64,000 nucleotides of DNA from assembly GCA_963922205.1 (NCBI GenBank), contig CAWUHX010000144.1:434001-498000 (forward strand). Direction: 5' to 3'. This document shows, one piece after another, positions 15,297-63,972 of the stretch. Each line of letters begins with the position of its first letter. The stretch's first letter is position 1. A program made the position numbers and the translations under genes. Origin of the DNA: Romanomermis culicivorax. Its lineage: Eukaryota > Nematoda > Enoplea > Mermithida > Mermithidae. The notes beneath the pieces were generated by a model. The model saw only the letters and a list, made by a program, of their open reading frames with translations, ran no database searches and was not told where the DNA came from.

Positions 15297-15504
15297 CACT
15301 GTTTTTTTTCCACATTTGCACAATAATGTGGAAAAAAATCTGGAATGTGGAAAAAATTTTTTGAGGTCTTTGCACAAATGTGGAAGAAAAATTTGGGGTT
15401 TTCATACTGAAAAGATGCGTTTTGGTGCATTTTAAGAATTAAGATTTCCAAATCTCAAAATTTTCCGGCGCTTCGCGCCGGTTATAACTCTAATAATCAT
15501 CATT

Positions 15505-15731
15505 CATATCTGTACTTGGGGGGTTGGGGGAGACCCCCCCCCAACTCGGCCAACCCTGTACCCAAAATCATTTCCCCCCAACCCCCCCCCCCCAGTTTGG
15601 AAAAAATTAAAAAAATTTTCAAAAAAGTATGTTTTTTTGGGGAAAATTTCGACTTTTTCCTACCCCCCCCCCCCCAAAAATTTCGGATTTACCCCCCCCC
15701 CCCCCAACTGGTCGGAGGTCTTACAGGTATG
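15505..15731 (+). mobile_element. P-family C/G-run MITE, copy 1
   Basis: Ends CATATCTGTA and TACAGGTATG (inverted) with the 8-bp duplication TCATCATT on both sides (15497-15504, 15732-15739). The interior is mostly C runs separated by AAAAATTTT-like words. It sits inside the A-type element. Confidence 0.85.
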
Positions 15732-15801
15732 TCATCATTATTCATTAAGTAGCTCAGGCTGGCTTTTATCATGTCTACCTTCATTTATCACTTAATCTAT
15801 A

Positions 15802-17182
15802 CAGGGTTGGCAAAAACCAAACTTTTGAAATTTCGACTTTTTGGTTTTTTGGTTTTTTAGTGGTTTTTTATGGTTTTTTAATGGTTTTTTTGGTTTTTCT
15901 ATGGTTTTTTAGTGGTTTTTTTCTGGTTTAATTCTTTAGAATGTTAGATACATCAAAATAACTATGAAAAAAACTGCTGGAAGCTCCCTGTATCATCTAA
16001 GACTAGTTAGGGAGCCTTGAAATGGCAGCTAGAAGTATTAATCTTATCGGAAGTGTCATTATTTTATGCTATAGGAAATCCCTATTATAGCAATAGAAAT
16101 ACAGTAATAGTGGGCACACAAGAGAGGAACCATGAACGAAGAACATAAGAAAAGTAAAAATGGAACAGAGCATGCGATATGTAAGGGGTAAATTCAAGAA
16201 AAAGAAGAAAAATTACAAGTAAAGAGAAATATACAATACACAATGTACGTAATCAAAACTCAAAAGAAATCAACTACAGAATTGTATCAATGCATATGCA
16301 TCACATATGCACAGAAAAGTTGAAATGACACAATTTTTAAGTATATACCGTTTTCGATAAGATGGTTTTGAATTGATAGATTATTACATATGTTATTAAT
16401 ATTACAAACTGCAGTTGAAGGTCCCACATAGACATTTCAGATGTTTCCAATTTTTTGCTTTTCAAACCTGTCTGCGAGCTATAACTACAGCAAATGGGTC
16501 TTATTATTATTCTCGTTTGCATGATAGATACATATTTTTGTAAGACTTTTTCTACTTAGCAGCAACATCAAGTCACATAAAAATGAGCCACTCAGAAGCT
16601 CTTCTCTTCGTCAACCTACAGTATGATTAACTGATCTGTATAAAATTTTATTATTGTTGTCTCATTTATATTTTGAAATTTCGAGCTAAGAAAATTAAAA
16701 AGGTTACTGTAACAATAGATTCAGGATATTAAACTCAATCAAATTCTATAACATTTTGATGATGATATGGATCAATGGATGTCACCCCGTATGGTCGAAG
16801 TACACTCCACAAAAGATTTAGCATCTACTTTTTTGTGAGCAAATTATAGCAAAATTGACTCATGTACTAAATGTGTGCTTGCAAGATAGATGCAAAGGAT
16901 ATCGATTAATTTATATTACATCTTTTGAGTACAAAATGTAGCATAAAAATACAACTTTTTTCTACTTTATAGTGAAGTCAATTCAACTAAATTAATTGTT
17001 TTGTTGATTTAGATAGACACCAAAACATGCCTAGAAGATCGACTAATGTGAAAAAACAGTTTCCCAATGATTTTGGAAAAAAAACCAAAAAAACCAAAAA
17101 ACCAGCGATTTTCCAATTTTTTGGTTTTTTTAAAAAACCAAAAAAACCAAAAAACCAAAAAACCAAAGCCTTGCCAACCCTG
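15802..17182. mobile_element. F element: hAT-like, GGTTTTTT subterminal arrays
   Basis: The inverted ends are CAGGGTTGGCAA, with a perfect 8-bp duplication AATCTATA at 15794-15801 and 17183-17190. The left subterminal region (about 15838-15926) is a tandem run of GGTTTTTT words, and the right (about 17083-17166) is the complement, AACCAAAAAA. The 1.1-kb interior has no coding frame, so it is non-autonomous. It interrupts the core of the surrounding A-type element. Confidence 0.85.
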
Positions 17183-17970
17183 AATCTATAATAGTTTTCA
17201 TCATCTTAAACGTAGTATCTCATGTTTTAATTGATAATCTTCAACATTTTATCATAATATTTAATGAAGATTCGCATTTTTTCTTTTTGAGAAAAATCAA
17301 TACGTCAAGTCTCTTTGCTTCATGATGCGATGCGATTATTTCTTTGATAACAAAAAATCAATTCAAAAGCTTCATGGAAATATCTTTCGGAAATTTATAC
17401 TCTTCTTACTCATATATTTTCGACCAAGTTCATGAGAGTTTACGAATAAATTACAGATTTTAAAAATTTTCAATTAAAATTCTAGAAAGTACGACTCTTG
17501 AACACAAAATTGGTATCTAATTCTTGAAATAAATGTTTGGAAAATTGATTTTCCAGCATCCCAGAATGTCAATATACCCAAAAAATTTTCCGGCGCTCTG
17601 CGCCGGAAAGATTACCATCCTTTTTGAGCTTTCGCTTGTCATCATAGAGGACTTGACGTTACCATTGATTTCTTGTATAATTCAAGTCAATTATGCTCTT
17701 GGATAGTTTCCTAGAAAATTTGTTCAACAATGCTTGTAGATTAGGCTTTTAAGTCGAACATTTCAATTTTTTCTTCAATTTTAATGAATTAACTTCTCTA
17801 AAAACGCCGGTAGGCTTGAAAAAGCTCAAAAACAGTGCGATAAAGCGTCTGTGAGCATTTTTTAGCTAAAAAACGAGGATTTTAAGACGAAAAAATTTAT
17901 TTCCACATGTGGAAAAAAATTTGACCCCTTTCCACATTTGTGGAAAAAAGTTCGTGAAAAAAAAACAGTG

Positions 17971-19048
17971 AGCATTGCCGAAATTACCGCCCCCTTGTTG
18001 ATTGCTCAAAATTTTTAAGATGTCGAAAATGCATTATATGCGTTTTAAATGGTTTTAACTAACAACTACATTTGGAAGAGCCTCAACAGCACTGCGCTCT
18101 TCGGGCGCAGCTGCTTTACCCTATAGCCTAAGCCTAAGGAAAATTTTAAAGGAAAAATTAATGGAAAATACATATAAGGCGAAAAACCGTCTGGGGACGG
18201 TAATTTCGGCCAATCAGAAGAAGGCTAACACTTCGTCTCTAATGCTTAGTGTATTTTCCCGACACTGTTTCTTTTTTCCCGCCGACCTTTTCCCCAAAAC
18301 GGGTCAAAATTTTTTTACCATTTCCCGAGGTCGTTTTTTCGCCTAAAAATGCTCACAGACGCTTTATTTAAGTGTTTTTGAGCTTTTTTAAGTCTTCTGA
18401 TGTTTTTAGAGCCGTTAATTCATTAAAATTGAGGAAAAAATTGAAATTTTCGAGTTTAAAGTCTAATCTCTACAAGCAGGCCCGTATTTAGAGGGGGAAG
18501 GGAAGAATTAACCCTCTAAATTTTTTTAGAATAAAATTTTCAGCAATGTCATTGTACTTATACATCACAATTTCCAAATTAAAGTATTATATTCACATAC
18601 TTTTCGCCAATAATCATAGAATTGAGCCACTAATCCGAAGCATTGTGGAACAAATTTTCCTGCAAACATCCAAAGGCATAATGAATTACATTCTAAATTA
18701 CATGAGAAATTAGTGGTTATAGTCATGGGCAAAAAAACCAGACGAATATGGGGAGAAAACCAAGGCAATTAAATTGGAATTACCGGAAATTGGCGTTTAG
18801 AGCATATTGAGTACTTGCTAAGAACGTCTTATCCCAAGTTTGAAAAAATTGAAAGCATTTGGTAAGTTTTAACAGCACTTTGGAAATTTAGTGAAATTTC
18901 GAAAAACCTCAACCATTTTTAACGCATTTTTAAGGCACTTTTGGCGTCACGCAGTTGACCGTGTGGTGAAGTCGTGCAACCTCTGACATGTTCCACATAT
19001 AGACGCCCCTAAGGCCTCTTCACAAAAAAATCTTTCAGTTGTTGGTGT
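17971..19048. other. Transposon fragments
   Basis: No gene. An A-like left terminus (CACTGTTTCTTTTTTCCC) begins near 18262 and runs into the inverted core, which is interrupted at 18477 by a sequence starting CAGGCCCGTATTTAGAGG, related to the J element at 43518. The segment 18049-18160 recurs at 19729-19815. No right-hand partners were found for these ends. Confidence 0.55.
18049..18160 (+). repeat. Direct repeat unit (partner 19729-19815)
   Basis: The sequence ATTTGGAAGAGCCTC followed by a CAGCRCTGCGC word and CCTAAGCCTAAGGAAA occurs here and again at 19729-19815 with small differences. The two flank the double P-family insertion. They may be parts of one family or a duplicated stretch of target. 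Confidence 0.55.
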
Positions 19049-20430: not shown

Positions 20431-22112
20431 AAACTGCTCATATGGCGCAGCATGAAGTCAAAAAAATCGTTCGGTTTTTTTCTTAATATGGTTTTTTTCT
20501 CCCACATTTCTGAAAATCTGTTTTTTTTAACTTTCACCTTATCATTTCTGGCTCCGCCAAAACTTGACCAATAACTTTTTTGATTTGTTTACTATATGCC
20601 TCTATACCACCCAAGAAAAATGTGACACAGTTTTTGAAGGTAGACATGCTAAAAGCTGCGCCTGAGCTAGGTAATATGTAATGATAATTTAAGTTATCAA
20701 GATTATGACCTTCTATGCACTAAAATAAATCTTTTCTGTATCCGATTCCCAGAATTTTCTTTCCCAATTGGCGAAAGAGCCCAAAAACACCGTTTTTTCT
20801 CAAATAGCGTCTTTTGGGGGGAAAAAATTTGGGAATGAGGAAAAAAATTTTGGGTACGGTTCTCAGTGTTGAAAGAATCTTGGGTAACTCAAAGCCGAAA
20901 AGAAGCGTTCTGGTGGACTTTGAAAGCTCAAATCTCAAAATTTACCGGCGCTTGGCGCCGGTATGGGTAGGAATCACTATTTTCTATCAGGCGCTCGAGT
21001 TAGCTCGTCCTATTGCTTGGAAGTTTTCAAACGTTTGCAACGTAGACTTTTGCGTTTATTGAAGATGGAAATTGAAGACTTTTGATTCTAGACTGCGATT
21101 TTTGAACTTCTGTTCATGAATATCTGTTAGAGAGATTTATTTTCCAGCGTTTCAGAATACGCCCGAAAATTTTTCCAGCGTTTCGCGCCGGAATGGGGAT
21201 TAAATTACACTTCACCAGTTTGACTTTAATTTATTTCTCAACGTTATGAAGGTTAATTTTCCAGCGTTTTAGAAAACGAAAATCCAAAAATTTCCGCGCC
21301 GGGCTGGGAACTGTAAACAAAATTGGATAATTCTAATCGGAACCACAGAAACGTTAATAGCGGATAAATTCATGGGAACTCTGTCGTTGACATGCTTTCT
21401 CTATTCCTACAAAACACCAATATATTCTTCATCAGCTCATTTTGACTAACATAACCAGAGTTTTCTCAATTTGTTCCTCATTCTTGCAGGTTTCTGACTC
21501 CAAAAACATCGAAATGTTTGGGTATATGCACATACAAGGGTTGTCAGGGGGAGGTTAACCCTCCTACACGAGACCCTAAACACCCCTCAGTAGCCTGGAA
21601 AAAATCGTCAAACACCCCTCCCTGAACTTTTTCGGAAACAGCTTCCTTGATATTTTTGATGCATATTTTGTATGAAAAGTATGTTTGTAGAACTTTTTTG
21701 TTTTTGTTGCTCACCCACCCCCACTTCTCCCTCGATGAAAAGTCCGAAGACCCTCCCTCCTGGAAAATTCTTGCCGTACATGTCTGTTATGTATGCTTCT
21801 AAAATGCATGAAAACGCATCAGTAGTCACATTACAAGCGTTTAAAAAAATATGGAAAATCTTTGGAAAATGAGGAAAAAAATTTTGGGTCCGGTCCTCAT
21901 GTGGAAAAAATCATCGAGAAAAACGGTGATCCAAGCACACATAAACCACTGAAAATAAGTCGTCTTTACTGCAAAAATGATTTTCTTTTTATCCAGTAAA
22001 TTCTGAAAAAATTTTGGAAAATTCTCCCCTTTTTTAAATCCTGAATACGGATATGCTCAAATCTAGGCGTTTTTCGAGGGCGACTTATTTTTGAGGTTTT
22101 AGGGGCGTTCCA
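20431..22112. other. Intergenic transposon debris
   Basis: No gene. An E-type terminus (CACCGTTTTTTCTC) starts near 20779, another E-type end (GAGAAAAACGGTG) lies at about 21920-21934, and part of a J-like element reversed (AAATCCTGAATACGG) near 22035. GC hairpins of the recurrent type are at 20945-20961 and near 21177 and 21294. An H-family repeat is at about 21527-21786. Confidence 0.5.
21527..21786 (+). repeat. H-family repeat, copy 1
   Basis: About 260 bp beginning TGCACATACAAGGG and ending GCCGTACATGTCTG. Related copies are at 33550-34047, 40458-40682 and 43031-43282. The ends carry the inverted word CATGCAC/GTGCATG, and the interior shares the CATATTTTGTATGAAAA and CCTGGAAAATTCTTGCCG words. 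Confidence 0.65.
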
Positions 22113-24832: not shown

Positions 24833-25540
24833 CATAGTTTTTTTTAGCATTTTACAAGCCATGGCTTGTTGGACTGACAAAATGGCTTGTAGAATTTTAG
24901 TCCAACAAGCCAAAATGGCTTGTCAGAATTTTTTGAGTCGTGTGTTTGATCACATCGGATACAGAAAACATGCATTTTGGTGGATTTTAGAAGGTCATAA
25001 TCTCAAAATTTTTCGGCGCTTCGCGCCGGTTATAACTTTAATAATCATTATTATTTATTTCCTAGCTCAGGCGCCGCTTCTAACCTGTCTACCTTCACTC
25101 ATCATTTAATCTTCAATAGTTTTAATCATCTTAAACGTATTATCTCATGTTTTAATTGGTAATCTTCAATATTTCATCTTGATATTTAATGAAGATTCAC
25201 ATTTTTTCCTCGACAAATTTTTTCAGAAAGATCAATACGTCAAGTCTGTAAACTTTTTGAAGCGATTATTCCTTCCTTAACGTAAAATCAATACAAAAGC
25301 TTAATGGAAGTAGTTTTCGGAAATTCTACTCTTCTTACTCACATCTTTTCGGCCAAGTTCATGAGTTTGATCGATTGCCGTGATGCTCAATATATACATT
25401 TCTTTGAAAAATAACCTAGCATTGGAATTTATCCACGTATACTGATATTATAAAATTGGCTTGTAAAAATTTGGAATGGCTTGTAAAATTTTAGGTCAAC
25501 AAGCCACTTGGCTTGTGACTCGTAGGTAAAAAAAACCCTG
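24833..25540 (+). mobile_element. G-type element, ACAAGCCATGGCTTGT palindromes
   Basis: Ends CATAGTTTTTTTTAGC and GGTAAAAAAAACCCTG. The flanks ACACAGCGC and ACACAGCC look like an 8-bp duplication with one extra base. Subterminal words are CAAGCC/GGCTTG, with ACAAGCCATGGCTTGT at about 24847-24862. The middle (about 24990-25370) is the shared core with the GGCGCTTCGCGCCGG hairpin. A second member is at 62896-63972. Confidence 0.75.
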
Positions 25541-25991: not shown

Positions 25992-37951
<11,960 letters not shown>

Positions 37952-37955
37952 GTTA

Positions 37956-37995: not shown

Positions 37996-38076
37996 ATTTT
38001 ACAGAAAATGCAGATTTATAAATTTGATTGTGACTGGCTTTTCGGAAAATCGTCCTTTGCGATTCGATTGGCTACG

Positions 38077-38771: not shown

Positions 38772-41700
38772 TTACTCGAACAAATGAGGCTTCACATTTC
38801 CATAAAGATCTGATGAAATCCGCGGCCTCAAATCTTCGTGGGTTGTCCACTCATAATCAACAACCTTTTGATTCGTTTCGATTTCCATACTCCTAGAAAT
38901 CGTCGTCGCCTTGAAGACGAACATCTAAAATGATGGAACGTTGTATTTTGTAATAATATAAAGATAAAGTAGTAACAGTAAACAAATACAATCCATAAAG
39001 GAACAAAAAATCATTCATACTTTCAAACCATCGAACGAAGTCGATTTCTGAATCGGTTTGGGGAATCGCCATTTATAATAGCCGACGGGTGCATTACCGT
39101 AAAACGTAAAATGTTCTTTATCGTTAACCAATTCTTTTAGGGCTCTCTCAGCAGCCTAATATGAAAAGAAAGTTAATGTTTGGGAAACTTTTTTCGAACC
39201 ATGCTTTGAAATTCGGTATTTTTATGTAAAAGAACGAAATAATACAGAAAAGAATTAAAAAACGGATTAGAGCTTGATTGCGTGAAAAATCACAATATAT
39301 ATCGTGAAAAATCAAGATGTGGTAAGAGTTTTTCGATGTTAAACTTTTCTTTAAGTGCATTACGATTTTAGTTTGGATAACGTTTCGAAAATACATTTTG
39401 GGCGAAAAACACTCATTTATGACGTTTTCTAAATGTCTTAAATAAATTTTTTGTCAAAAACGGATATGTTCATCGCGTTCTTCCTGTAAACCCATGTAAA
39501 AACTAATACCTGCCTCATCTGGCAAATCCTCTAGCAAATGAATAAGCATATAATAACATAGTGAGGAGTAGGGGGTTCCAACATTTGTTCAACAGGTTGA
39601 CTGGTCGCCCATCTTGATGTCTTTAAACAACATCTCGATTGTTCTTCAAGATGCCATTCTGACTTTTTTAAATCTTGAAAATCATCAAACCTTGAAAAAA
39701 CTGCGACGCACTTGAAAAAAGTTGAACTTGGAAGAGCTATACATCTTGATTTCGTGAGATGAATCTTGATATTTTCGAGATGCATTTTGAAACATTATTG
39801 AAAAACGTTGAGCATCATATTCGAATATTCGAAGAAAACAGCTTTTTCAAGTGATTACGTGCGAGTAGTTACGATTTTTTTTCAAGTGATCGTTCTCGTA
39901 TTCCGTAAAAAATACTCCAAAACACAATCTACAGAACTAGCATTAAATCCGACGATCGATCGCTTGTTCGATGTTCAGAAACCATTCCTTTAATGTCACG
40001 GTACTGCATTGGTTTTAATTACCTGCCTTAAATTTTCTTGGGGCTTCACGATGGCGAAAGGCAACCACCACGCAGGATTCTGGCTTAGGTTGAGCTTGGC
40101 GATGAACGTTAATTTTCTATGAAGTAATCTGTTTAACGACTTGAGATCATTTTTTGCGTCGTCAGCTTAAAAGAGAGAAAAATTATCTGAACGGACAAGG
40201 GATAAAAATTTGCAATGCCGAACCCGTCTTCGTTGGAGCCGCAGCGAAATTTTTGAGTTCTGATAAAGCGAGTTCTTCGAAATCTTGAGCAGTCAGAGCG
40301 GCGACAGTTTCTTCACCAGAGGAAGACTCAGTCTGACTTTCTTTGGATTGCTTTTTGGCCAATCTTTCTAGACGCTTCCTTCAAAAAAATTTAGTCGAAC
40401 TGCGAACAATCTCCTTTCACTGGTAGTGTTCTACGAGGTGACATCCTGGGACCATAATGTACATAGGGAAGATAGGGAGTGTGAACCCTCCTACCTGAGA
40501 CCCTGGACACATCTGCCTGACCCGAAAAAATGCCCAAACAACCCCTCCTTAACTTTTTCGATTGTTTTTATGCATATCTTGTATGATAAACATGTTTAAG
40601 GAGCTTTTTTGTTCTCTCACGACCCTCTCGATGAAAGGTTCGAGGACCCTCTCTCCCGGAAAAGGCTTGCCGTGCATGTCTGCAAGGGACCAACACTATT
40701 TTTATTGTATATAAATGATCTTCCTAAGAAAATCAATTCTAATATTTTCTTGTTTGCTGATGACGTTAAAATTTTCAAACTCCTCAATGAACAATCATGT
40801 TCTCCAAGCAGATCACGATAGAATCTTAGCTTGGTCTTTTAGCTGGCAGCTTGACATCTCTCCTGATAAAGGTAAAGTACTCCGCCTTGGTTATTTTAGT
40901 CCTATGTACTACTGTCATATCTGTAAGAAGTCCGACTCCGACCAGTTGGGAGGGGGTAAACCCGAAATTTGGGGGAGGGTCGAAAAAAAGTTGAAAATTT
41001 TCCCAAAAAAGGCACTTTTTTGCCAATTTTTCGTCATTTTTTCAAGTTTGGGGGGGGGGTTGGGTATAGGGTTGGCCAAGTCAGGGGGTCCCCAATTTCA
41101 GGTATGACTATTATCAGGTGGACAGCAGATGTTCACCATATACTGATCAAACAGTAAAAGTTAAAGATTGCGCTCAAAAATGGTGTAAAATGCTTTGAAA
41201 AGTATATTTTATTGGTTTACAATATACTAAAATTGTTTTTAAGCGTAGAAAAGGTATTTTTCCTCAAGAAATTTTTCGCTCCGTCTGCACAGTGCTGATC
41301 CAAATCAAATTTTTTTTGCACTGAAAACTTTTTCCGTTTCAGGTTTAAAATTAGCTAAAAATGCGCACAAATGAGCGAGAACTGTAGATTTTCGAGAAAA
41401 TCTTAAAATGTTGTATCTAACTCAACGACATTGTTTAGAATTATTGAGTAAAAAGATCAATGCTGCTGAAATTTCTTCATTGTGGTGCGCAACGTCCGAG
41501 AAATTTCAAGATTTTTATGCTCTAGAATGTGGAAAATAATCTTGTCAGCACTTATTCAAAATTTAAGATTCATTTTTTCAGCCTAGAATGTTATTCGGAC
41601 CTGAGCTATGAGCTGATGTTTTTTATCGGCTAACCAGCTAGAAAAATCAGATAAAAATCAAGGATGCTTCACAAATTTGGCAAATCAACAAAAATCGTAT

Positions 41701-43870: not shown

Positions 43871-44411
43871 AACAGCGTTTTTTTTGTGCACGGACATTTG
43901 TGCCAATTGGCACAAGAGGCCAATTGTGCCAATGGCACAAAAAAAATTTTTTCTACCAGAAACATACCGAAAATTGCGGAAAGATTTGGGCCAAAAGTTT
44001 GATGAGGAGCTATAACGTTTAACGCGTTAATTTTTTGCAAAAATCTTTTTTTTTGCAAAAATCAAAAAAATTTTGCAAAAAAAAAACTTATTTTCCAGCT
44101 AAACCATGTCAGTGCACGTGGATTTTGGTGCGCATTAAAGATTTATAGTAATATCAATCCGCGTACCCCTCAGAACGTTGAACGCGAAGTACTTTCGAGG
44201 CGAAAATAATATCCATCAAAACGCAATCCGAGTTTTCGTTGAGGTATACCAAAGGACATGCTTTAAAATGATATATTTTAATTTCCGACACAGTTATATG
44301 AGGCCGAAGCTTGTTTGGCTTGTCCCCGATTTTATTTGCTGCTTACGCATGATCTTGATAGTCCGAATCTAACGTAATTTTGAAATTTACAAAACTTCTC
44401 ACCTGGTTCAC

Positions 44412-44624
44412 TTAAAGAAACATGTGATATAGCTTATTCGATAGCATTTTTAATTCTCTATCGTTGCATATAATAAAAAGATTAAAAGAGTGATCGAGTT
44501 CGATGTAAATTGCCGAAAAGAGAATAGCCTTAGTTCGACTCCTATCTACGGCGAGAATACTGACTCTATCCAAAAAAACTTCTTCGAGTTTGTCAAAAAA
44601 TTTTTCATCTTCAATTTGAGCCAT
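44412..44624 (-). CDS. Small ORF carried inside the B-type element
   Basis: A 70-codon frame starting MAQIEDEKFFDKLEEV and ending with TAA. I do not recognise the family. It lies in the stretch absent from the related copy at 47314, so it could be a captured host exon, a remnant of an autonomous element, or chance. A GTGAG donor follows shortly after the stop. Confidence 0.3.
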   Translation of the reverse strand: MAQIEDEKFFDKLEEVFLDRVSILAVDRSRTKAILFSAIYIELDHSFNLFIICNDRELKMLSNKLYHMFL

Positions 44625-45083
44625 AAATCATGAAAAATGGACAACTACAACAGAAGTTTTATGCTTTAGAAAAAATTTCGGGTTACTGTTGATTTCAATT
44701 TCTGATAGATTCGCACCGTTTCAGACAATTTTTTGTCAGTTCTATTCATTTTATTATAAATTACAACAATATGCAGTGGTAAAATTATGCTTTTGTCGCG
44801 CAAAATTCTATTCTGCGTTTGAGTAAACCTTTGTCGCGCTTTAGTTTCAAGTTGTTCTTGAGATATCCGTCGACGACTGACAATAACCCGGATTATGTTT
44901 GAACTCAGGTGAGTGAGATAAGAAAAAACTGTGCAAAAAAATAGTTCACGACGGCTCAAACAGAAATGAAATACTGACAAAATTTAATACACTAGAATTG
45001 TTTAGGAAGTTCAATTCGATTCAATTTTCGACTACTAATATGAATTATCTACATATTTAAACACAATGTAAAGCCAAAAACTG

Positions 45084-45388
45084 CATACCTGTAATTGGGG
45101 GGAACCCCAACCACAACTTGGTCGAACCTTATACCCAAATGATGGGACCCCCATCCCCAACTTGATCAACCCTATACCCAACCTCCCCCCCCCCCAAACT
45201 CGGAAAAATTGGAAAAAATTAGGAGAAAAGTGGCTTTTTTGGGAAAATTTGCGAAAATTTTTCAACTTTTTGGGGGGTTTTTCGACCCCACTCCCCAAAA
45301 TTTTGGAAATGTGGGGACCCCCACCCCAAAATTATGGGTTAGGGTTTATTTCCCCCCCCCCCAACTGGTCGGACCTCTTACAGGTATG
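45084..45388 (+). mobile_element. P-family C/G-run MITE, copy 6
   Basis: Ends CATACCTGTA and TACAGGTATG with a perfect 8-bp duplication AAAAACTG (45076-45083, 45389-45396). At 305 bp it is longer than its relatives because a CCCCAACTTG-type segment is repeated near its left end. Confidence 0.9.
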
Positions 45389-45995
45389 AAAAACTGTGTA
45401 AATTTTCGGTCGAAACATTGTACGATTTCCAACGATATCGATTTTTCTATTTGAATCAATCAAACACAAAAAGTAAGAATTTCAATTTTGAATCCAAATC
45501 TGACTGAATTAACAGAGGATATTCAAAATTTCTTTTCATTTATCAGTCATTGACAGCCCATAAAGTTTGCTGCAACGATACTAGTACACTGTTCGAAGAG
45601 AAATCGTTCGCATTCGGGTCAAACATACGAATAGGAAATATTATATTCATTGACTCGGCGCAAAGCGCCGGAAATTTTTTGCATTTTCAGCACCTAAAAG
45701 GTCTAAAAATCAAGGAAATTAAATGTTTGTCCAGCCAAAAATTTTGTGCCAATCGGCACAAACGGTAAAAAATTTTTGTGCCCTGCCAAATTTTTTTGTA
45801 CCAAAAACCATGTTTTGGCACAAAAAAAAACACTGGGCCTGAGCCTGGCCTGTGCAAAAAACCTTCTGGTCGCCAAAAACCCCAAAAAATTCGAAAATTT
45901 CCCTAGAAAATGTCAAAAAAAGCTACTTCCGCTAAATTTTTTCCGAGCGATCCCAACATTCGGGTATATGTCCCAACATGGGCCAGGCGCCGCGC

Positions 45996-46711
45996 CACTA
46001 TTTTTTTCCTCGAACTTTTTTTCCACAAATGTTGGAAAGAGGTCAAATTTCGTCTTGAAATGTTCGTTTTTCGCTTGAAAATGCTAATAAACACTTTATT
46101 TAAGTGTTTTTGAGCTTTTTAAACATCCTGATAATCATTCTGATCACAAATCTCAAAAATTAGATTTAAATTTTGTGTTCATAAATCGTAATTTCTAGAA
46201 ATTTATCATTCGAAAAAATTTAAAACCATCAATTTGTTCATAGCCTTTCATAAATTTGGTCGAAAAACTATGAGTCAGATGCGTAGAAATTTTTCTTTCA
46301 TGAAGCTTTTGAATTGAATTTACGTTAAGAAAAGAAGACACGCTTCAAAAAGTTCAGAAAGTTGACGTGTTGATCTCCCTGAAAAAATCTATGAAGGAAA
46401 AAATGTGGATCTTCATTAAATATAAAGATATAATACTTAAGATTGCCAATTAAACATGAAATAATACGTTTAATATGATGAAAACTATTAAAGATTAAAT
46501 GGTACGTGAAGGTAGACATGATAAAAGCCGCGCCTGAGCTTGCTAATGAATAATAATGATTATTTGGACCTGCTAAAATGCACCAAAATGCATCTTTTCA
46601 ATATGAAAACCCAAAATTTTTCTTCCACATTTGTGGGAAGACCATAAAAATTTTTTCCACATTCCAGATTTTTTTCCACATTATAGTGCAAATGTGAAAA
46701 AAAAAACAGTG
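45996..46711 (-). mobile_element. A-type short element with shared core
   Basis: Ends CACTATTTTTTTCC and GTGAAAAAAAAAACAGTG. The flanks CGCCGCGC and CCCCGCGC agree at seven of eight. It carries TTCCACA/TGTGGAA words at both ends and the inverted shared core (46100-46600). Confidence 0.8.
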
Positions 46712-47034
46712 CCCCGCGCTGACATCGAATTCACCGTTTTTTTTCCTGGAAGATTTTTTCCACATGAGAACCGGACCCAAAATTTTTTTCCTCATTTTCC
46801 AAAAATTTTCCATATTTTTGAATACGTTTATAATGTGGCTACAGATGCTTTTTATGCTTTTTAGGAGGATACCCAAGCATCTTGTTGTGAGTCAGAAACC
46901 TGCAAAAATTAAAGAAAAATTGAGAAAATTCTGGTAAGGTTAGTCACAATGAGCTCATGAAGAATATATTGGAGTTCTACAAAACCGATAAAGCATGTTA
47001 CGATAGAATTCTCATGAATTTATCCGCTATTAAC

Positions 47035-47260
47035 CATACCTGTAAGACCTCCGACCAGTTGGGGGGGGGGGGGTAAATCCGAAATTTTGGGGAGGGGGGG
47101 GGTAGAAAAAGTCGAAATTTTTCCCAAAAAAGGCCAAAAAACATACACTTTTTTGAAAATTTTTTCAATTTTTTCCAAACTGGGGGGGGGGGGTTGGGGG
47201 GAAATGATTTTGGGTACAAGGTTGGCCAAGTTGGGGGGTCCCCCCCCAAGTACAGGTATA
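47035..47260 (-). mobile_element. P-family C/G-run MITE, copy 7
   Basis: Ends CATACCTGTAAG and GTACAGGTATA. The flanks CTATTAAC and CTATGTGG share only the first four bases. It is inserted in the E-type element. Confidence 0.75.
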
Positions 47261-47977
47261 CTATGTGGTTCCGATTAGAATCATCTAACTTTTATTTAGT
47301 TCTTGATCGAGCGCAGCGTTTTTTTTTGTGCACGGACATTTGTGCCAATTGGCACAAGAGGCCAAAAAAATTTGTGCCAATTGGCACAAGAGGCCAAAAA
47401 AATTTGTGCCAATGGCACAAAAAAAATTTTTTACTAAAGACATACTGAAAACTGCGGAAAAGTTTTAGGCCAAAAGTTTGATGAAAAGTTGTTGTTTTAA
47501 CGCATTAATTTTTTGTAAAAATCGTGCCCAATCTATTTTTCAGCTAACCATGTCAGTGAGAAGAGAAAAAACTGTGCAACAAAATAGTTCACGAAATCCC
47601 AGAAGGAAATGGAATGCTGAGACAATTTAAATAGCTCTAGAATTGTTCAGGAAGTTTAAATTGATTCAATTTTCGACTACGAACGAATATCTATGCTATG
47701 TTTATTTAACAACCATGTAAAGACTAGAGAAAATAAAGTCAAAAATCACGTTAATTTTCGATCGAAACATTGTGCCATTATCAACGATATCGATTTTTCT
47801 ATTTGAATCAATCAAACACAAAAAAGTAACAATTTCAGTTTTAAATCCGAATCTGACTGAATGAAGAGAGAATATTCAGAATTTCTTTTCACTCATCAAT
47901 CTTAACAGCCTATAAAGTTTGCTGCAACGATACTAGTACACTGTTCAAAGAGAAATCGTTCGCGTTCGGGTCAAATG

Positions 47978-50900
47978 CACTGTTTTTTTTCCACATTTGC
48001 ACTATAATGACGAAAAAAAATCTGGAATGTGGAAAAAATTTTTGGGGTCTTTCCACAAGTGTGGAAAAAAATTTCAGTCATCAAGTATATATTGGCTTTA
48101 TGGTAGCTGTTCGAGCGAACAGAGTACTGTAGCCGAGAAAACGAAAAATCACGTATCAAAATTCATCAATTTTATTTTGTGTGCCAAAAAAGCAAAACGT
48201 GGCGTGACAAAAGAATCTGGAATGGCACAAAAAATTTTGAGCATTTGTGCGAATTGGCACAATTTTTTGACTGTCAAGGCTGAATTTCCTTGATTTTTAG
48301 GCATTTTAGGTGCTGAAAAGGCAAAATTATCTTGGCGTTTGGCTTGGCGCCGCCAAATCAATAAACATCATTTTCAAGTTCAACTTTTATTTGGCTCGAA
48401 CGCCAGGAAATTTTTGTCCAATAGTATGTCTGTTTTATCGCAGCAAAAGTTATAGATTTTGAATAATGATTTAAAAATGATTATACATTTTGGACCAACT
48501 AGTCTAAGTCTGTTTAACAAATTTTCTCCAGAAGCAGTGTTTTTTTCCGTCAGCTCTTCCTCAAACGGAAATAGAGGCCAAATGTTTTTCCTTATTTTCT
48601 CTTTTTCTGCTCCTGCTCACATAGGTCTTATTCAGTCAATTTAAAAGTTTTTCCAACATTCTCATATCCTCAGATTGAAAAAAATTTTCGAGTTCTCATA
48701 ATTAAAATATTAAAATTATTTTTCAAACGATCCATGTGATCTTGAATTGCTGGAGATATCAACAATTGAAGTCGGCAATAACTAGTAGTGATTTCCTTTT
48801 GAATCATTGTCCAAATGGCATTATTAAATTTTTGGGCAACAAAATTGTTAAATTATGCCAAAAAATTAATTTAATTAAAAATATACAGTTTTCAGTATAT
48901 TTTTAACCAGAAAAATTTTGTTGTGCTTTTGACATTGGCACAACTCCAGATTCATTACTTCAACTCTTAGCTCCTTGCATTAATCTTATCTGTTATTTTT
49001 TAGAACCATAAATATGATGAAAATTACTGATTATTTCAAGAAACCTCAATCGTCCTCAAATCATGCGGATGAAATTGGAATTATTAATTTTGAACCAACT
49101 GAATCGGAGAATATAGATTATATCATATGAAAGATTCAGATTCTGCTGGTACAACTATTGATCAAAATAATAATTTTATGGAGAATGACAGTTTAGCCGA
49201 TTCCCCTCATCCTGCCGATGAGAACAACACTGACAATTCGAATTTAATATTAGCTTCTTCCAGAAATGCTGACGTGGGTGACCAGGGAACTCGACGAACT
49301 TTCCAAAACGAATGGAGTAAACAGTTTCCTTGGTTGATTAAACTTGGTGAGAATGAAGTAAAATGTACAATATGTGCTAGAAATAAATCGAATTCCAAGA
49401 ATGATTGGGGAAGCTCAAAATTGATTCCAGTACTTTATTCAACCACGTTCAGCAAGCATGAAATGAGCAAAAAACATCGTGAAAATTTGCTCATTGCCCC
49501 TATGCAAAAGAATCTCATTACTTCTGTAGAAACTGCCTGTACAAAAGCGGAGGAACAGACAATTGACTTAATGTATAATATTTTGGCAGCTTTAAAAAAT
49601 GAAATGAGCTTGAATAAAGTGGAATTTTTGCACAATTTATGCGATATTCATATCAATCGAGCAGTAAAATCTTGTGATGGAGTTGCAACCAAAAATGTTA
49701 TAAAACTGTCCTCAAAGCATCGATCTTTATATTCAACGTACAAAATGGTCAAGGCCATAAATAATGTAATTAAGCGAGAAGAATACAAAATTTTCCGAGA
49801 AGCTTTATCAATTTGTATTCACATTGATGAATCTACGAATCTCAAAGATTCAAAGTTACTTCTAGTTTACTTTAATATTTGCTCAAGTGATCTTACCAAA
49901 TGTGGTGAACATTTCGTTTCTGTGATAGAATTAGAAAGCAAATGTGATGCCGAAACTATTTCGAGTAAACTTGATGCTCTCCTAACTGAAATTGGTATTA
50001 GAAAAGAAGCTATTACCATGTTCACCTCCGATGGTGCTTCGGTAATGACTGGAAAAATTAATGGAGTAGCTGAGCGATTACGATCACAATATGGTTATTC
50101 AAATATGGTGGATTTTCATTGCGTGTGCCATAGAGAAAATTTAGCTCTGAGAGATTCTTACAAAGTGAGCATAATTTGTTGAAGTTGTTTAGTATAAGTT
50201 TAAAACTTTTTGATGACCTATATTCTGTCTCTAGGACAATGTGGCTTTTATGCAAATCGAGCAATTACTTCGAGATACAATTAGTTATATGACATGCCAC
50301 AACAATTTGGTTCACTTGAAGAAAATTGCTGAAATTTTACAAGAAGACTTGTTTATGCCTCGTCCAATTTATGAAATTGGGTGAGTGTTTAAATTTTCTT
50401 TTTGGATCTTGTGTAAATAATATTCAATTTAGATGGCTTTCCCGGTTTTATGTCATCAAAAATTTTGTCAAATCCATGCCCATTATTCTACAGTTCTTGG
50501 AAGAGAAAAAACCAAATGATCCAATTGCTAAAGTAAGTTTCATACAGTTAAATTATGTGCAATAAATTTACTCTAAGCAGGTGTTACACGATCAACTTGG
50601 CCGCTTAGAAATATTGATCCTTCTGCATTTTCTAAAAGATTTATTAGCACCACTAGAAAACCTGATGCTTAATTTGCAGAAAAAAGAATTGCACCCAGCT
50701 GAAGCATTAGTGAGTGATAATTTTTTGGAGTAATCTTCAACCATAGGCATTTTTATAATTTTCAGATACTCGTGAATGCAACAATTGAGCAGATTACTGA
50801 CAAATTCGTTAATTTCAAAGGCCGGCTTTACACAAAATCGTTCGAGAGACTGATGAACAAGATCGAACAGAAAAAAATTCGATTGGTGGATAATTTAAAC

Positions 50901-52034
50901 TCTTCAGCTCGGATTCATGCTGCATCTGATATAAGAGGTAAGGTGTTATTATATTTGAATGATGATAAAAATTTTAAAAAACAAGTTTTAGAGCTCGCCA
51001 TTGCTGTTACCCAAAATTTAAAAAATCGATTGTGGAACAATTCAAAATTAATAAACTATTTTCGTATCTTCACGGATTTGCAGAGCTTTACATCTATTGA
51101 TGATTTTCCTAATTACGGCCATCACGAATTAAGAAAATTATTACGATTTTATCGCCAATTGTCTGTTATAGATGACAATTTTTTTATAGAGTGGGATATG
51201 TTCAAGGTAATTATATCAACAATTACTAAATCTTTTTCTAAAATCTAGTATTTTTCCAGTACACTTACCTTAAACCGATTATGGTGGGCCAAAATTCAAC
51301 ATCGTGGAAAAATGTTCTACAATTATGCATAGTCAACAAAGAAGTTTTTCCAAATTTGATCAAAATTGTAGCCCCGTGTAAGGTTTAAAATTTATATAAA
51401 CATTATAATACTAACTACAGTTACTTACACAATTTCTTTTAGTATTATCATTCAATGCACAGAATGCATCTGTGGAACGAGGATTTTCATTAATTAATCG
51501 AATTCAGACAAAAACCCGTAACAGGCTCTAAGTGGATACAATCGACATGCTGGTTCGAATTCGTCTGTCATCTAAAAGCTACCAAGAATTTGATTACAAA
51601 GCTACACTGTTAGAGTATATGAATGGCGTTGTTTATTCACTTGGTGTGAAGACGTTTAAAAAAACTACAAGTAAAAGAATTTGAAAATTTGAATGATGAA
51701 TTATCTGCATAAAATCTTGCTTTTTCAGCATACAGTGTAGGCGATGAAGAAACAGGATGAAGGTTATTTATACTTCTGTGAAATAATCTGAAATAGTGCC
51801 TAGTCGTCATAGTATGTACTTTTTTGTTGAAATAAATGTGATTTTGATCATAGCATTGTTTTTTTATGTTTATACTTAAATGTTGTAATTCATAGTCATA
51901 TATTTACATGTTTTGTTAGTAACTCATAGGATTTTCAGATGAAAACTTAAGACCAAAAAATTTTCCACATGTGGAAAAAAAATTTGACCCCTTTCCACAT
52001 TTGTGGAAAAAAGTTTGTGGAAAAAAAAACAGTG
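47978..52034 (+). mobile_element. A-type hAT transposon with transposase gene, innermost level
   Basis: Ends CACTGTTTTTTTTCCAC and GTGGAAAAAAAAACAGTG. The flanks GTCAAATG and GTCAGATG agree at seven of eight. Subterminal TTCCACA/TGTGGAA arrays match those of 15297-17970 and 45996-46711. It is 4,057 bp and holds a spliced transposase gene. B-type words (GGCACAAAAAATTTTG and GTGCGAATTGGCACAA) also occur inside at about 48224-48262. Confidence 0.88.
49014..51531 (+). pseudogene. hAT transposase gene, two lesions
   Basis: Cuts and pastes hAT elements by a DDE mechanism. Exons read as 49127-50164, 50235-50380, 50433-50532, 50581-50709, 50766-51206, 51260-51377 and 51443 onward, with all phases matching. 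The N-terminal zinc-binding region has CTIC and HEMSKKH spacing, BED-like. The catalytic blocks are IHIDEST (first D), FTSDGASVMTGK (second D) with FHCVCHREN after it, and the C-terminal ASVERGFSLINR dimerisation block, which supplies the E. Two defects are visible. An N-terminal piece starting MMKITDYFKKP at 49014 is in another frame and hits TGA at 49128. A TAA at 51529-51531 cuts the tail about 50 codons early. The first piece has a PCNA-binding (PIP) flavour, I-x-x-Y-F. The copy is therefore probably inactive, though recently so. Confidence 0.85.
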
Positions 52035-52417
52035 GTCAGATGTACGAATAGGAAATATTATATTCATTGATTCGGCGCGAAGCGCCGAAAAATTTTTGCA
52101 TTTTCAGCCCCTAAAACGTCTAAAAATCAACAAAATTTAATGTTTGACCAGCCAAAAAATTTGTGCCACTTGGCACAAACGCTCAAAATTTTTTGTGCCA
52201 TTCCATATTTTTTTGTGCCAAAAACCATGTTTTGGCACAAAAAAAACACTGATCGAGCGCGGAGCGCCGGAAAAAATTCTGAATTTTCACCTTGTAAAAC
52301 GCTGGAAAATAAACCTTCACAACGTTGAGAAATAAATTAAAATCAAAGTGTTTCTCATTTCGAAATTTTTTTCCTCAAAAGAAGACCCCATCTGAGGAAA
52401 AAAACGGTGATCGAATT

Positions 52418-57340: not shown

Positions 57341-58410
57341 CAGTGGTTTTTTTTTGGGCCATTGGAATGGCACAAAAAATTTTGGGCGTTTGTGCCAATT
57401 GGCACAAATTTTTTGACTAGTCGAATGCCGAATTTCTTTGATTTTTAGTAGTTTTAGGAGCTGAAAACTCAAAATTTTCCCGGCGCTCCGCGCCGAGTCA
57501 ATCACTTACTTAAGTTATAAGTCAAGAGTCAGGAAGCTGAAAGAATTGTATTCGATGATAGATTTGTATGATCGCAACAAACTTTGAGATTGTCAATGAT
57601 TGAAAAATGAATTAGTTAACTTCCATTGTTCATTCAGTGTGATCGGAAGCCGAAATTTTTATTTTTGGTGTTTGATTCATCGAACAGAAAAATTTACCTT
57701 GTTGGCGCAATTTTTAAACCAAAAATTTACGCGACGTTACTTCCGTTCTAGTTTTTTTCAGGAAAAATCATTTTGGACATCCTTAATTTATTTACATCGG
57801 TGTTAAGAAGAAATCCGTAGCCGAAAATTAAAGGAAAATATAAAATGCCTGAAAAATTGTATAAAAATATCTGAATTCTCGCAGCATAGCATCCATACCT
57901 GTAGTTGGGGGGGGGACCTCCCCCCAACTCGGCCAACCCTGTACCCAAAATCATTTCCCCCCCCCCCAACCCCTCCCCCCAGTTGGGATTTGGGAAAAAA
58001 TTAAAAAAATTTGCCAAAAAGTGTATGTTTTTTGGCCTTTTTTGGGAAAAATTTCGACTTTTTCCTACCCCCCCCCCAAAATTTCGGATTTACCCCCCCC
58101 CCCCCAACTGGTCGGAGGTCTTACAGGTATGATAGCATCTGATTTTTTTCCGAATCGTATAAACTGCTTTCTTCATCAGTTTTTCTTGTCGCACTGACGT
58201 GCTTAAGAAAAAGGAGTTTACACGATTTTTTTGAAAATTAGTGCGGCAAAAGTAAGCTTTAGTTATGTTTTTATCAAACTTTTGGCATAAAACTTTTTAA
58301 AAGTTTTCAGTATGTTTTTAGGCTGGAAAAAATTTTTTGTGCCATTGGCACAAATTTTTTCGCTCCTTTGTGCCAATTGGCACAAATGTCCGTGCACAAA
58401 AAAAACGCTG
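57341..58410. mobile_element. B-type element with a P-family insert
   Basis: Ends CAGTGGTTTTTTTTTGGG and GTGCACAAAAAAAACGCTG. It has a perfect 8-bp duplication ATTATTCA (57333-57340, 58411-58418), and GTGCCAATTGGCAC words lie at both ends. No coding frame. Confidence 0.88.
57894..58131 (+). mobile_element. P-family C/G-run MITE, copy 8
   Basis: Ends CATACCTGTA and TACAGGTATG with a perfect 8-bp duplication ATAGCATC (57886-57893, 58132-58139). It is inserted in the B-type element. Confidence 0.92.
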
Positions 58411-58887
58411 ATTATTCACCAAAAAAATTTTTTGTGCGCCACCAGTCTGTTTTTTTGTGTGAAAACAAAATTTTTTTGGCACAAAAAAATTTGGAATAGC
58501 ACAAAAGTTTTTTGGCGTTCGTGCCGATTGGCACAAATTTTTTGACTGGCCGAAGGCTGAATTTCCTTGATTTTTAGTCGTTTCAGAATTCAGGGCAGTG
58601 TTCTTTTTGTGCACGGACATTTGCTCCAATTGGCACAAAGGGCCAAAAAAAATTTGTGCCAATGGCACAAAAAAAATTTTTCACCGTAATGACGTACTGA
58701 AAACCTTTAAAAATTTTTGTGCCAAGAGTTTGATAAAAACATCAACTAAAGATACTTTCACCCAGGGTTTCTTTTTTTGCACACAGCAACCAAATTTCGG
58801 GCTGTGCAATCACAGTTATCCTGCCAAGTTGCACAGTGCAACTTGAGGCCTGACCTTTTGATTAGGTGATAGGGTTTTCTGCCCGGA
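58411..58887. other. Broken B-type ends
   Basis: No gene. A B-type left half (GGCACAAA and GTGCCGATTGGCACAA words) covers about 58440-58590. Another B-type terminus (CAGTGTTCTTTTTGTGC) starts near 58596, and a third terminus-like word (CAGGGTTTCTTTTTTTGCAC) lies near 58763. None could be paired. Confidence 0.5.
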
Positions 58888-60876: not shown

Positions 60877-61517
60877 ATGACACCAACGACCGATTTTGGG
60901 GAAACATCTACGCTTCCCCGAACTTCGGCCAAAAAACGCACTAAACAATCCGTTTGTTTTCTACCCATTTTGGTGCAAGAAAAAGCTCGGCAATCGTTTC
61001 AAGGGTCTAGTTGCGTCAACGTCGCCGACGTCGCCGCCACTTCGAATGCTTCTTCCGATTGCGTGCAACAACAGCAACCTCAGCGTAGTTTTATACGGAC
61101 ATGCAATAGGGCCAAACGCGTCAAGTTTTTCAGGAATGGTGATCAATATTTCAAAGGTAAAATTTAGTCATTTTGTGAAATCTCTAGAGGTTTACTGATA
61201 TTCTGTCAGACATATATTAATTTGACTTTTTAATTTTGCTACATTGAAAAATGTTTTTAAACAGGGATCTGGTACGCCATCGCTTACGATCGATATAGGT
61301 GTCTGGAAGCACTTTTAGAAGATTTGAATAGAACTATCGGCGATTTAGTTAACTTACCTCATGGTGTTCGTTGTATTTTTACGATCGACGGTTCGAGACG
61401 GGTTAAACATTTAGACGACCTTCTAGACGGTGAAAGTTACGTTTGCTCATCGAATGATTCGTTTAAAAAAATTGCTTACGACAAAGCCAGAGAACCGATT
61501 TGGTGCTACGGGACTAG
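60877..61517 (+). CDS. Doublecortin-domain protein, 5' two exons (partial)
   Basis: A microtubule-binding doublecortin (DCX) domain, most like the first domain of doublecortin or doublecortin-like kinase. Exon 1 is 60877-61156 and exon 2 is 61265-61517, with matching phases and GT-AG borders. Residues 1-77 are a low-complexity leader. The domain follows: KRVKFFRNGDQYFKG, then the LPHGVR and FTIDGSRRV motifs, and DGESYVCSSND. A donor at 61518 shows that it continues. No further exon could be recognised to the end of the window, so whether a kinase domain follows is unknown. Confidence 0.88.
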
Positions 61518-62895
61518 GTGAACTTTCAAATTAAATATAATATATTTCAGTATCATTCTTTATGATCATACATGCACTGCATGGGCATTTTGCTCGGGGT
61601 CAGTCAGGACGCTGGGTGGGATGGAAATTTTTTTACTTTCTTGGAAACGAAAAGGAAGGTCTTCTAACATCCATGCAGCATATTCTTCAACCTGTATTAG
61701 TCAAATATGTCTGGTCAGCACTTTTTAAAGCTCTAGTATTACTTCGTTGGAATCAAATATGCATTGTTTAGATTAGTCGTCAAACTACAGCATCATGACC
61801 ATTCTTATAACGACCTTCTTTTCCCTCATTCATTTTCCTTCATTATCTTCTCGATCATTCATTACTAGAGGGGCGAATCTGCTGGATGTCAGCAAGGATC
61901 TGCTGAGGGTCAATCAACATCTTTTGAGGATCAATATCCTCTAAGCCCATCACGTGCATGTATGGTTATGATTCAATTCATACCTATAGCTGGAGGTGTA
62001 AAATGCTATGAGAACTATAGTACATTTTATTGAGGGGAAGTGCCATTGGAATCTCCCACAAATTGTCAGCCATATGGTGATTCCAAGATTTGACGATCAT
62101 GTAGTTAAAATAGTCTGGCCGTTGTAACCCCATCCTTCCGAACGAAACAAACTGAAGACTGTCCAGTTTTTAGAAAAAATGGTCATATTGAGCAAAAAAT
62201 TGTCAACGATTTCAATTTTTAGGCACCTCCAGCCATGCATGTTTTACGATTTTTTAAACAACATTTACTATTTTCCTGTTTTCATCCTTTTTGGGCGGGA
62301 AAAAATCAAAATTTTTGTCTTTTGTTGATTTCTCCTAAGATTTTGGGCAATCAATGACCCCATCCATGAAAATGTCATCTGACCCCTTCCCTCAGACTTT
62401 GGAGCTCCGTTACACGCGGTGTGATAAAAGTCATTTTTTTAAGCTTCGCGTCCTCAAGACTGTTAATGAACTTTTTGGGATTTGATCATACATTAGCATA
62501 GGGAGCGTAAAGAGTATAGTGTATTATTCGTCCTGAGTCTTGAAAATTGTTCGTCGGGGGTCGTCGTCGACTTCCGCAGAATCTCTTATTTTCTACTTAT
62601 TTCGGGCAAATTTAAGCATCTATTTAGTCAAATGGCGAATTTGACTTAACATCAGAGTACTCATTTCAAGCCTATTCAAAAATATTTTAATTTTTGCTGT
62701 ATCTCAATCGAGTTATGAGTATCAACAAACGCATTCACAAAAAAGATCACGTTCTGTTCTTTCTCGTTGTTCAACCTTGTTAATTCATATATTTAATCAC
62801 GCATTTTCGAGACAATTTCAGCGATTTTTGAGGTCTCAATTCGGTTTTTTAGACCACTTCCTACCCTTTCCTACGGATGAGCTGCATCAGCTGAC
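61518..62895. other. Intron of the doublecortin gene or intergenic DNA
   Basis: No exon recognised. A sequence at about 61865-61970 resembles the repeat at 35384-35772. A stretch at 62380-62420 has words similar to reductase intron 7. Confidence 0.4.
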
Positions 62896-63972
62896 CAGGG
62901 TTTTTTTTGACCTACGAGTCACAAGCCAAGTGGCTTGTTGACCTAAAATTTTACAAGCCATTCAAAATTTTTACAAGCCAATTTTATAATATCAGTATAA
63001 CGTGAATAAATTCCAATGCTAGGTTATTTTTTAAAGAAATGTATATATTGAACATCATGGGAATCGATCAAAAAAGAGATGTCAATCAACATTTATTCAA
63101 TAACATTTTAGAGCCGTTAATTCATTAAAATTCAGGAAACATTTGAAATTTTTGAGTCTGATCGAAGTCGAATCTACAAGCATTGTGGAACAAATTTTCC
63201 AGCAAACTATCCAAGAACATAATGACTTTGAATTACATCAGAAATCGGTGGTTAAATCCTCTATGATGACAAGTGAGAGCTCAAAAAAGCTATTAATCTT
63301 TCCTGCCTGAAACGCCGGAAAATTTTTTGGGTATTGACATTCTGCGATGCTGGAAAACCAATTTTCCAAACACTTATTTGAAGAATTAGATTCGAATTTT
63401 CTGTTCAGAAGTCGTAATTTCTAGAATTTTATATTTGAAAAATTTTAAAACCATTAATTTATTCTCACACTCTCATGAACTTGGCCGAAAAGATATGAGT
63501 AAGAAGAGTAGAAATTTCCGAAAACTACTTCCACGAAGCTTTTGAATTGATTTTACATTAAGAAAGGAATAATCGCTTCAAAAAGTTTACAGACTTGACG
63601 TATTGATCTTTCCCAAAAAATGTGTCAAGGGAAAAATGTGAATCTTCATTAAATATCAAGATGAAATATTGAAGATTACCAATTAAAACATGAGATAATA
63701 CGTTTAAGATGATTAAAACTATTAAAGATTAAATGATAAGTGAAGGTAGACATGTTAGGAGCAGCGGCTGAGCTAGGAAATAAATAATAATGCTTATTTA
63801 AGTTATAACCGGCGCGAAGCGCCGGAAAATTTTGAGATTATGACCTTCTAAAATGCACCAAAATGCATCTTTCCTGTATTCGATATGATCAAACACATGA
63901 CTCAAAAAATTCTGACAAGCCATTTTGTCAGTCCAACAAGCCATGGCTTGTAAAATGCTAAAAAAAACTATG
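62896..63972 (-). mobile_element. G-type element, copy 2
   Basis: Ends CAGGGTTTTTTTTGACC and GCTAAAAAAAACTATG, the reverse orientation of 24833-25540. The flanks AGCTGAC and AGCTGAAC suggest an 8-bp duplication with one base lost. ACAAGCCATGGCTTGT is near its right end, and the inverted core holds CCGGCGCGAAGCGCCGG at 63809-63825. Confidence 0.78.

Follow-up and report, generated by a model that had tools for sequence, protein, structure and literature searches.

How does one internal sequence come to lie between the ends of several different transposon families? The question is raised by a 64,000-nucleotide stretch of the nematode Romanomermis culicivorax (contig CAWUHX010000144.1, positions 434,001 to 498,000, in an assembly of 359,112,060 bases and 595 contigs), hereafter called the window, which consists of animal-like nuclear DNA with a high density of hAT-type elements; "animal-like" is based on a transposase gene with short introns and a Ty3/gypsy-type element. 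The first-pass annotation had described element types A, B, D, E and G as one framework, with CASYG-style ends and, in A, D and G, a common core, both of which stay fixed while the palindromes of the subterminal arrays turn over. This observation stands in part: the pattern was found to extend genome-wide, but the ends of G are CATAG/CAGGG, and E has only the left edge of the core. The best explanation, to which we assign a probability of about 75%, is that the elements belong to related hAT families with family-specific motifs on one array layout, and that a core lineage has passed between these families.

The core consists of approximately 0.8 kb of the non-autonomous A-type element A1 (15297..17970, + strand; target site duplication AGCATTAG/AGCATTGC, 6/8), and complete or partial copies of it, 73-82% identical to A1, are present in A3 (non-autonomous, 716 bp; 45996..46711, - strand; duplication CGCCGCGC/CCCCGCGC, 7/8), C1 (23908..24801, + strand), C2 (59294..59637, - strand), G1 (24833..25540, + strand), G2 (62896..63972, - strand) and a D element (29183..29850, + strand; duplication TTACCGAC/TTACTGAC, 7/8) that carries two partial copies. 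C1 is a C-type alpha array with a decayed terminal inverted repeat (TIR) followed by the core, C2 comprises a C-type alpha end and a portion of the core, and G1 has an internal deletion relative to G2. The sharing claimed for A, D and G was therefore observed, and it includes the C type, which the first-pass annotation had omitted. The right edge of the core is also found with a C-type beta end (18263..18478, - strand), and its left edge is joined to the E-type alpha end E3 (20788..20962, + strand), where about 150 bp of the E copy (20820-20962), spanning the end and the left edge of the core, match A at 73%. The core is absent from B1, B2 and the autonomous element A2.

Genome-wide, the core 17-mer TCTACCTTCACNTATCA was found at 1179 places (control 0), and among 100 listed places there were eight pairs with the double-core spacing of the D type, 255-267 bp. 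In a sample of twenty 10-kb stretches, the ends of types A, B, D, E and G recurred, together with those of a new type, H, with the motif GGAGCC. Twenty core loci were then taken as every fifth of the 100 listed places, all on contigs C1-C10, and their alpha arrays, assigned by eye and BLAST, were of types D (6, one truncated), G (6), I (5, one truncated), C (2) and J (1); none of the 20 was of type A, which is under-sampled here because the 17-mer has no match to A1. The core-bearing types I and J are new and were added by this targeted sampling. At L017:67-703, an H-type element (GGAGCC/GGCTCC), related to G but with altered half-sites, separates two parts of a core copy.

The way in which a core can change its ends is recorded in J elements. 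The J beta array was found at 284 places genome-wide, and ten of the first 17 perfect places were read as J loci, two others being L030 and L039. Five of the ten are empty and show TATTGTAACAGGAGAAAAC or a close variant of it, and four are filled, with a C-type beta TIR followed by GTAACAGG (L060, L061) or by a variant with one or two changes (L063, L064); the C array is mostly gone from L061, and the tenth locus, L062, has an I-type end. L030 and L039 are also filled (GTAACGGG and GTAACAGA). The left copy, GCAACAGG in L039 and GTAGCAGG in L029, stands before the C alpha end in sequence that is also present in the empty J copies. With up to 2 mismatches allowed, the empty J site was found at 185 places and the filled right junction at 553 (controls 0), which gives a rough ratio between patterns of different length. 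In L030, the inner flank of the J alpha array, ending in TTTGATCACAT, directly abuts the core at CGGATACAG, and at the point where L030 joins the core, three of the five empty copies (L055, L057 and L059, in the stretch printed) read TTTGATCACATATATTC. A C element was inserted in a J element at GTAACAGG, and a later deletion joined the J ends to the core. The whole end module was replaced in J, which is at odds with the claim that turnover occurs only between fixed ends.

Remnants of older arrays are found inside the newer ones in other types as well. The J inner flank joined to the core is present within the G arrays of all nine G copies read (including L031 and L037), and G and J form one core clade (99/99); because all nine copies keep the J flank, a passage from C to J to G is implied. 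In all seven D copies with the alpha side read, two of them degenerate, the D array is followed by an A half-site and the A junction, which lie at 29273-29301 in the D element of the window, where a CCCTG TIR-like remnant is also seen at approximately 29749-29761. L043 has an A beta array and TIR remnant inside its D beta array, and its D/A beta junction pattern occurs at 54 places with up to 3 mismatches, of which only that of L043 was read. All five sampled I copies retain the innermost C site, for example CCCCATTTAGGG, inside the I array. Thus the part of the earlier interpretation in which one core carries many subterminal types is supported, and the part in which sites simply turn over between fixed ends is not.

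These loci suggest a route of three steps. A core-bearing copy would insert within an element of another family, near one end; the composite would be copied by the transposase of the host family; and a deletion would then remove the old end, so that the core comes to lie between new ones. Nesting, and not template switching, probably also made D, I and G. A broader proposal, on which we are evenly divided, compares the cores to hermit crabs that outlive any one transposase by serial capture (C to J to G; A to D; C to I), on a common half-site layout of two and three helical turns with a freely changing motif, so that parallel lock-and-key hAT systems would each have their own zinc finger. A selective reason for end switching, such as the arms race or the escape from cross-mobilisation suggested by the first-pass annotation, would be hypothetical.

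The subterminal palindromes reported in the window are all present (CCACATGTGG twice, GTGCCAATTGGCAC five times, GCACCGTGC twice and AAGCCATGGCTT twice), and GTGCCAATTGGCAC occurs at 4387 places genome-wide (control 0). As read from one chosen copy per type, with half-sites taken as repeated k-mers, the motif varies by type (GTGG, GAGG, GGGG, GTGC, GGCAC, GGCTTG and others) and the layout is common to ten types. The alpha half-sites, given by position and strand, are 12-, 31+, 50+ and 83+ in A; 14-, 33+, 53+, 76- and 85+ in B; 11-, 19+, 39+, 62- and 70+ in D; 11-, 30+ and 50+ in E, with a changed site at 84; 22-, 32+, 53+, 73- and 86+ in G; 24-, 32+, 53+, 75- and 86+ in H; 9-, 18+ and 38+ in I; 11-, 19+, 39+ and 63- in J; 13-, 22+, 42+, 65- and 74+ in L; and 18+, 38+ and 67+ in C1. 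The first two same-strand half-sites are 19-21 bp apart in 10 types, and the next same-strand half-site lies 29-34 bp further in the eight types where it was seen (not I or J). The beta ends follow a layout of their own, for example 13-, 27-, 36+, 59- and 66+ in A; 10-, 24-, 34+ and 56- in D; 11-, 25-, 35+ and 56- in J; and 10-, 22-, 33+ and 54- in C. At the G beta end (L022:2497-2601; window 25436-25540), the site order is like that of the A/B alpha array reversed, and the spacer AAAAATTTGGAA lies between two G motifs; a search with this spacer pattern was noisy (165 rows, mostly unrelated).

An identical pair of 5-mers, not of A and T only, was found 19-21 bp apart on one strand in 11 of 13 alpha arrays (not in K and M), whereas 200 shuffled sets averaged 3.08 and reached at most 7; distances of 20, 52, 51 and 32 were the most frequent. 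When half-site positions, copied by hand, were compared pairwise among 11 arrays (55 pairs; the C array of L029, which has no clean positions, and those of K and M being excluded), 168 of 203 coincided, while random placement gave 95 +/- 5.7, with a maximum of 113 in 300 placements. The counts of repeats were weak: in B, C1, D, E, M and N at least 57 of 300 shuffles equalled the top 5-mer count, and in B, C1, I and M at least 34 of 300 equalled the top 6-mer count. More weight therefore falls on the spacing test. Distances of 20-21 and about 32 bp would correspond to two and three helical turns, with the sites facing the same way. The spacing of the half-sites may thus be nearly fixed while the motif is specific to the family, and, from the sequence and by analogy, the arrays most likely bind the transposase of their own family and are read by its zinc fingers; both binding and mobility are proposed here because of what is known of other hATs.

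The arrays fall into three main sequence groups, with similarity within A/B/C/E (z 2.6-8.3), D/J/L (4.3-6.3) and G/H (7.0-7.6), and no similarity was detected between A and G (z 0.5, -0.2), D and C (-1.0, -1.0) or D and G (0.0, -0.2). The high similarity of C1 and I (z 8.1) is seen because I retains a C remnant. The idea that A, B, D, E and G are equally distant interchangeable modules was rejected, and "interchangeable" is a loose description of three groups, each made of diverged versions of one array, with some similarity across groups.

The most plausible alternative is change in place, in which the half-sites mutate in concert as the specificity of the transposase shifts, and the core is inherited by descent. 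It agrees with the alignment of the A, B, C and E arrays over their spacers, where the half-sites differ, and with the C and A beta ends, which differ largely by CCAC to CCCC. However, the history of the core does not follow that of the ends throughout. In a core tree of 31 rows (L022_A, which has only the right part of the core, was dropped), the type labels needed 8 changes, compared with a shuffled mean of 18.9; six D rows clustered with A3 (100/99), with L025 and L022_D, the latter mostly a second core copy, lying outside. Approximately unbiased (AU) tests on 29 rows, with L022_D and L014_x also left out, rejected a single D clade (p 0.0073, although most D rows are short, with 32-36% of columns, and the result deserves repeating) and a single A clade (p 0.0012), but not a single G clade (p 0.34). 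Core and end histories therefore agree in the main and not fully; the conflict between core phylogeny and subterminal type that the first-pass annotation had expected was found for D and A, and the complete agreement that it had named as fatal to its idea was not. Since the core tree rejects single D and A clades, ends were captured and not only mutated in place. The old arrays or half-sites inside the new ones in D and I also do not fit in-place change, which as a full account is unlikely.

Less probable still is that ends were swapped by ectopic recombination, gene conversion or gap-repair template switching, without nested insertion. Ectopic exchange is the mechanism that the authors describing Galileo chimeras propose, in the available text of that work (PMC3573991), and in G and I the junction lies at the array boundary with no nested intermediate seen. 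For J, on the other hand, the empty site, both flanks, the composite and the deletion product are all present, and the A beta array and TIR remnant within D in L043 also weigh against such an exchange. That the core is an independent mobile element with many insertions into unrelated hAT elements, as its abundance and its presence in several element types could suggest, is very improbable and was rejected, given that the boundaries of the core vary with type and have array remnants next to them, that A1 and A3 are colinear across their common parts, and that no duplication was noticed around the core alone, for which no systematic search was made.

Several observations weigh against the passage of a core between families that share one layout. 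The layout depends on the single copies chosen and on k-mers, the null of the coincidence test is simple random placement, and types K and M have a spacing of 22, outside the 20-bp layout. The groups of arrays are not cleanly separate, with z values of 3-4 for A-D, A-J, J-G, J-N and D-M, and the shared spacers of the A/B/C/E arrays make these look mutated in place. The core is missing from half of the ten J loci, as well as from B1 and B2, and so is not a constant component of every type. At L039, where alone the C insertion could be seen with its two flanks, these (GCAACAGG and GTAACAGA) are not identical, and the D beta ends with the second core copy are only partly explained. No copy was seen in which J arrays still adjoin G arrays, nor did any search for empty host sites of D or G run to completion, so that the D and G switches could be the result of template-switching repair, which could account for I as well.

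The elements belong to related families of hAT transposons within a single animal genome. Their 8-bp target site duplications, as had been claimed, are real. A first scan for TIR pairs, with up to 2 mismatches in the duplication, found nine (B2, E1, B1, A2, A3, D, A1 and two others), with an offset control that was uninformative (mean 5.6, compared with 6 observed at up to 1 mismatch); the pairs 35902-39810 and 46612-50467 were taken for chance. A second scan, which added B3, covered the window and L001-L024, with pairs up to 5 kb apart and low-complexity sites excluded. With up to 1 mismatch it gave 16 raw pairs, or 8 distinct, compared with 0-3 raw pairs at six offsets, and with 0 mismatches 8 raw pairs (4 distinct), compared with 0 at all six. 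The G type has a perfect duplication, CTTAAGGC, in L022. The C-terminal dimerisation region of hAT transposases was also found (Dimer_Tnp_hAT, E 4.8e-4, 20.3 bits, curated cut-off 21.4). The short, non-coding elements share their ends with an autonomous element, as miniature inverted-repeat transposable elements (MITEs) do: A1 and A3 have only end sequences in common with A2 (97 and 88 bp for A1), and the B elements share the B alpha array with the transposase loci L049 and L050, read on the left side and not at the right ends.

The transposase gene of A2 (49014..51690, + strand; about 7 exons by eye) is no longer intact: exon 1 contains a frameshift, and a stop interrupts the last exon. It encodes a zf-C17orf113-like finger and a hAT dimerisation region, both under Pfam cut-offs, and Hermes chains with the dimerisation stretch at E 5.9e-5. 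The finger is named zf-C17orf113 by Pfam, not BED, and was above the cut-off in one of the five tested, L052; it was below in A2 and in three of four relatives (one at E 0.2). A genome search gave 118 exon-1 matches, with 117 of 426 first-look candidates scored, and ten transposase loci were read, upstream only and without right ends. L054 (83% identical) has an A array and an inner B array in the same arrangement as A2, L049 and L050 (45%) have B arrays, L051 (43%) has a B-like array, and L052 (33%) has an L array, CTGCTC/GAGCAG. TIR-like ends of other kinds are present at L048 and L053, and L045-L047 (50-51%) are one transposase family without a clear left-end array type. An N-type end with the motif TTGCACAGTGCAACTTG is found beside these last three and in the window at approximately 58763-58850.

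The finger regions differ among the genes beside A, B and L arrays, in agreement with a check that the first-pass annotation had proposed. The residues preceding the first zinc histidine are YSTTFSKH in A, RKSILKEH in B, KKDIFQKH in L048 and RSTYMNDH in L052. In Hermes, according to the available text, base contacts are made by the apical loop and the helix before the zinc histidine (PMC10368747), and by our own mapping, made by analogy, this contact region would correspond to the residues compared here.

Common interiors with different ends, and mixed ends, are already known, so that the statement that no such system had been described was wrong in part. The available account of the CMITE families of Acropora corals describes different TIRs around a highly conserved internal region, and one novel element that arose by CMITE insertion, with an origin that its authors call unclear (PMC2872659). 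As in the CMITEs, the interior here is more conserved between families than the ends. However, the CMITEs are of another superfamily, being piggyBac-like and about 100 bp long with TTAA duplications, and that account gives no subterminal arrays and no chain of end capture (PMC2872659). For Galileo of Drosophila mojavensis, the text available reports 12 of 170 copies as chimeric, with one central region and TIRs of different subfamilies, but Galileo belongs to the P superfamily, has 7-bp duplications and long TIRs, and is explained by ectopic recombination and conversion, not nesting (PMC3573991). Its chimeras have non-matching flanks, while the duplications of D (7/8) and of G in L022 (8/8) match. 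AgaP2-P12MITE of Anopheles gambiae has ends from two different autonomous subfamilies; as described in the part available, it is a single composite of the P superfamily, with no core running through several end types (PMC1562414).

Among hATs, Hermes also has 8-bp duplications, and its BED zinc finger cooperatively binds short subterminal repeats that include a quasi-palindrome (PMC10368747); the Herves transposase likewise binds a subterminal motif (PMC3143072). Unlike the families here, these and other hATs have one main motif per element, the Hermes sites are asymmetric between the ends, and the portions of both sources that were available describe no group of families in which a single layout carries many motifs (PMC10368747, PMC3143072). 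The maize Ds classes are also non-autonomous hATs, most with subterminal repeats that bind transposase, but in the available description they show the reverse pattern, with common ends and different interiors (PMC3260210). Searches of an open-access library yielded, as far as its text was available, no nested-insertion route that includes the host sites and no single layout combined with many motifs. The empty site, composite and deletion product document a route by which a non-autonomous element can change its mobilising transposase, a pattern of the kind left unexplained by the coral CMITE authors in the text available (PMC2872659), and the series of some ten recognition motifs that share a layout, several of them next to the transposase gene of their own family, could reveal the DNA-reading code of hAT zinc fingers.

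The window also contains a three-level nest, E > B > A, with its own duplication at each level. A2, an autonomous A-type hAT without the core (47978..52034, + strand; duplication GTCAAATG/GTCAGATG, 7/8), lies in B2 (47314..52251, + strand; ATCGAGCG twice, perfect), which lies in turn in the E-type element E1 (46732..52409, + strand; ATCGAATT twice, perfect). A B-type alpha array that has lost its TIR is kept within the left end of A2 (48207..48374, + strand) and is repeated in L054. The other B-type elements are B1, with no core (43873..45835, + strand; GGCCTGAA/GGCCTGAG, 7/8), and B3 (57341..58410, - strand; ATTATTCA on both sides). Without its two nested elements, at 15505-15731 (duplication TCATCATT) and 15802-17182 (duplication AATCTATA), and without one copy of each duplication, A1 measures 1050 bp. 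The first of the nested elements is one of three G/C-run elements, with others at 45084-45388 and 57894-58131, that have ends CATAYCTGTA..TACAGGTATG and perfect 8-bp duplications (TCATCATT, AAAAACTG and ATAGCATC), and that lie in A1, B1 and B3, respectively; they represent another small hAT-like family. The second, within the A1 core, is a different hAT-like element with ends CAGGGTTGGCAA.

Outside these elements, an LTR (long terminal repeat) retrotransposon extends over approximately 384-14878, with Ty3/gypsy domains in an open reading frame at 1015-7932 and a second long frame at 9128-13687 (1519 aa), for which no Pfam match was obtained at E 0.001. A thioredoxin-reductase-like stretch at approximately 29974-30040, translated by eye, is likely to be an exon of a host gene. 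Among 120 of the 480 protein matches listed, most were to repeat-rich entries, many of them from a pseudoscorpion, at 29-52% identity.

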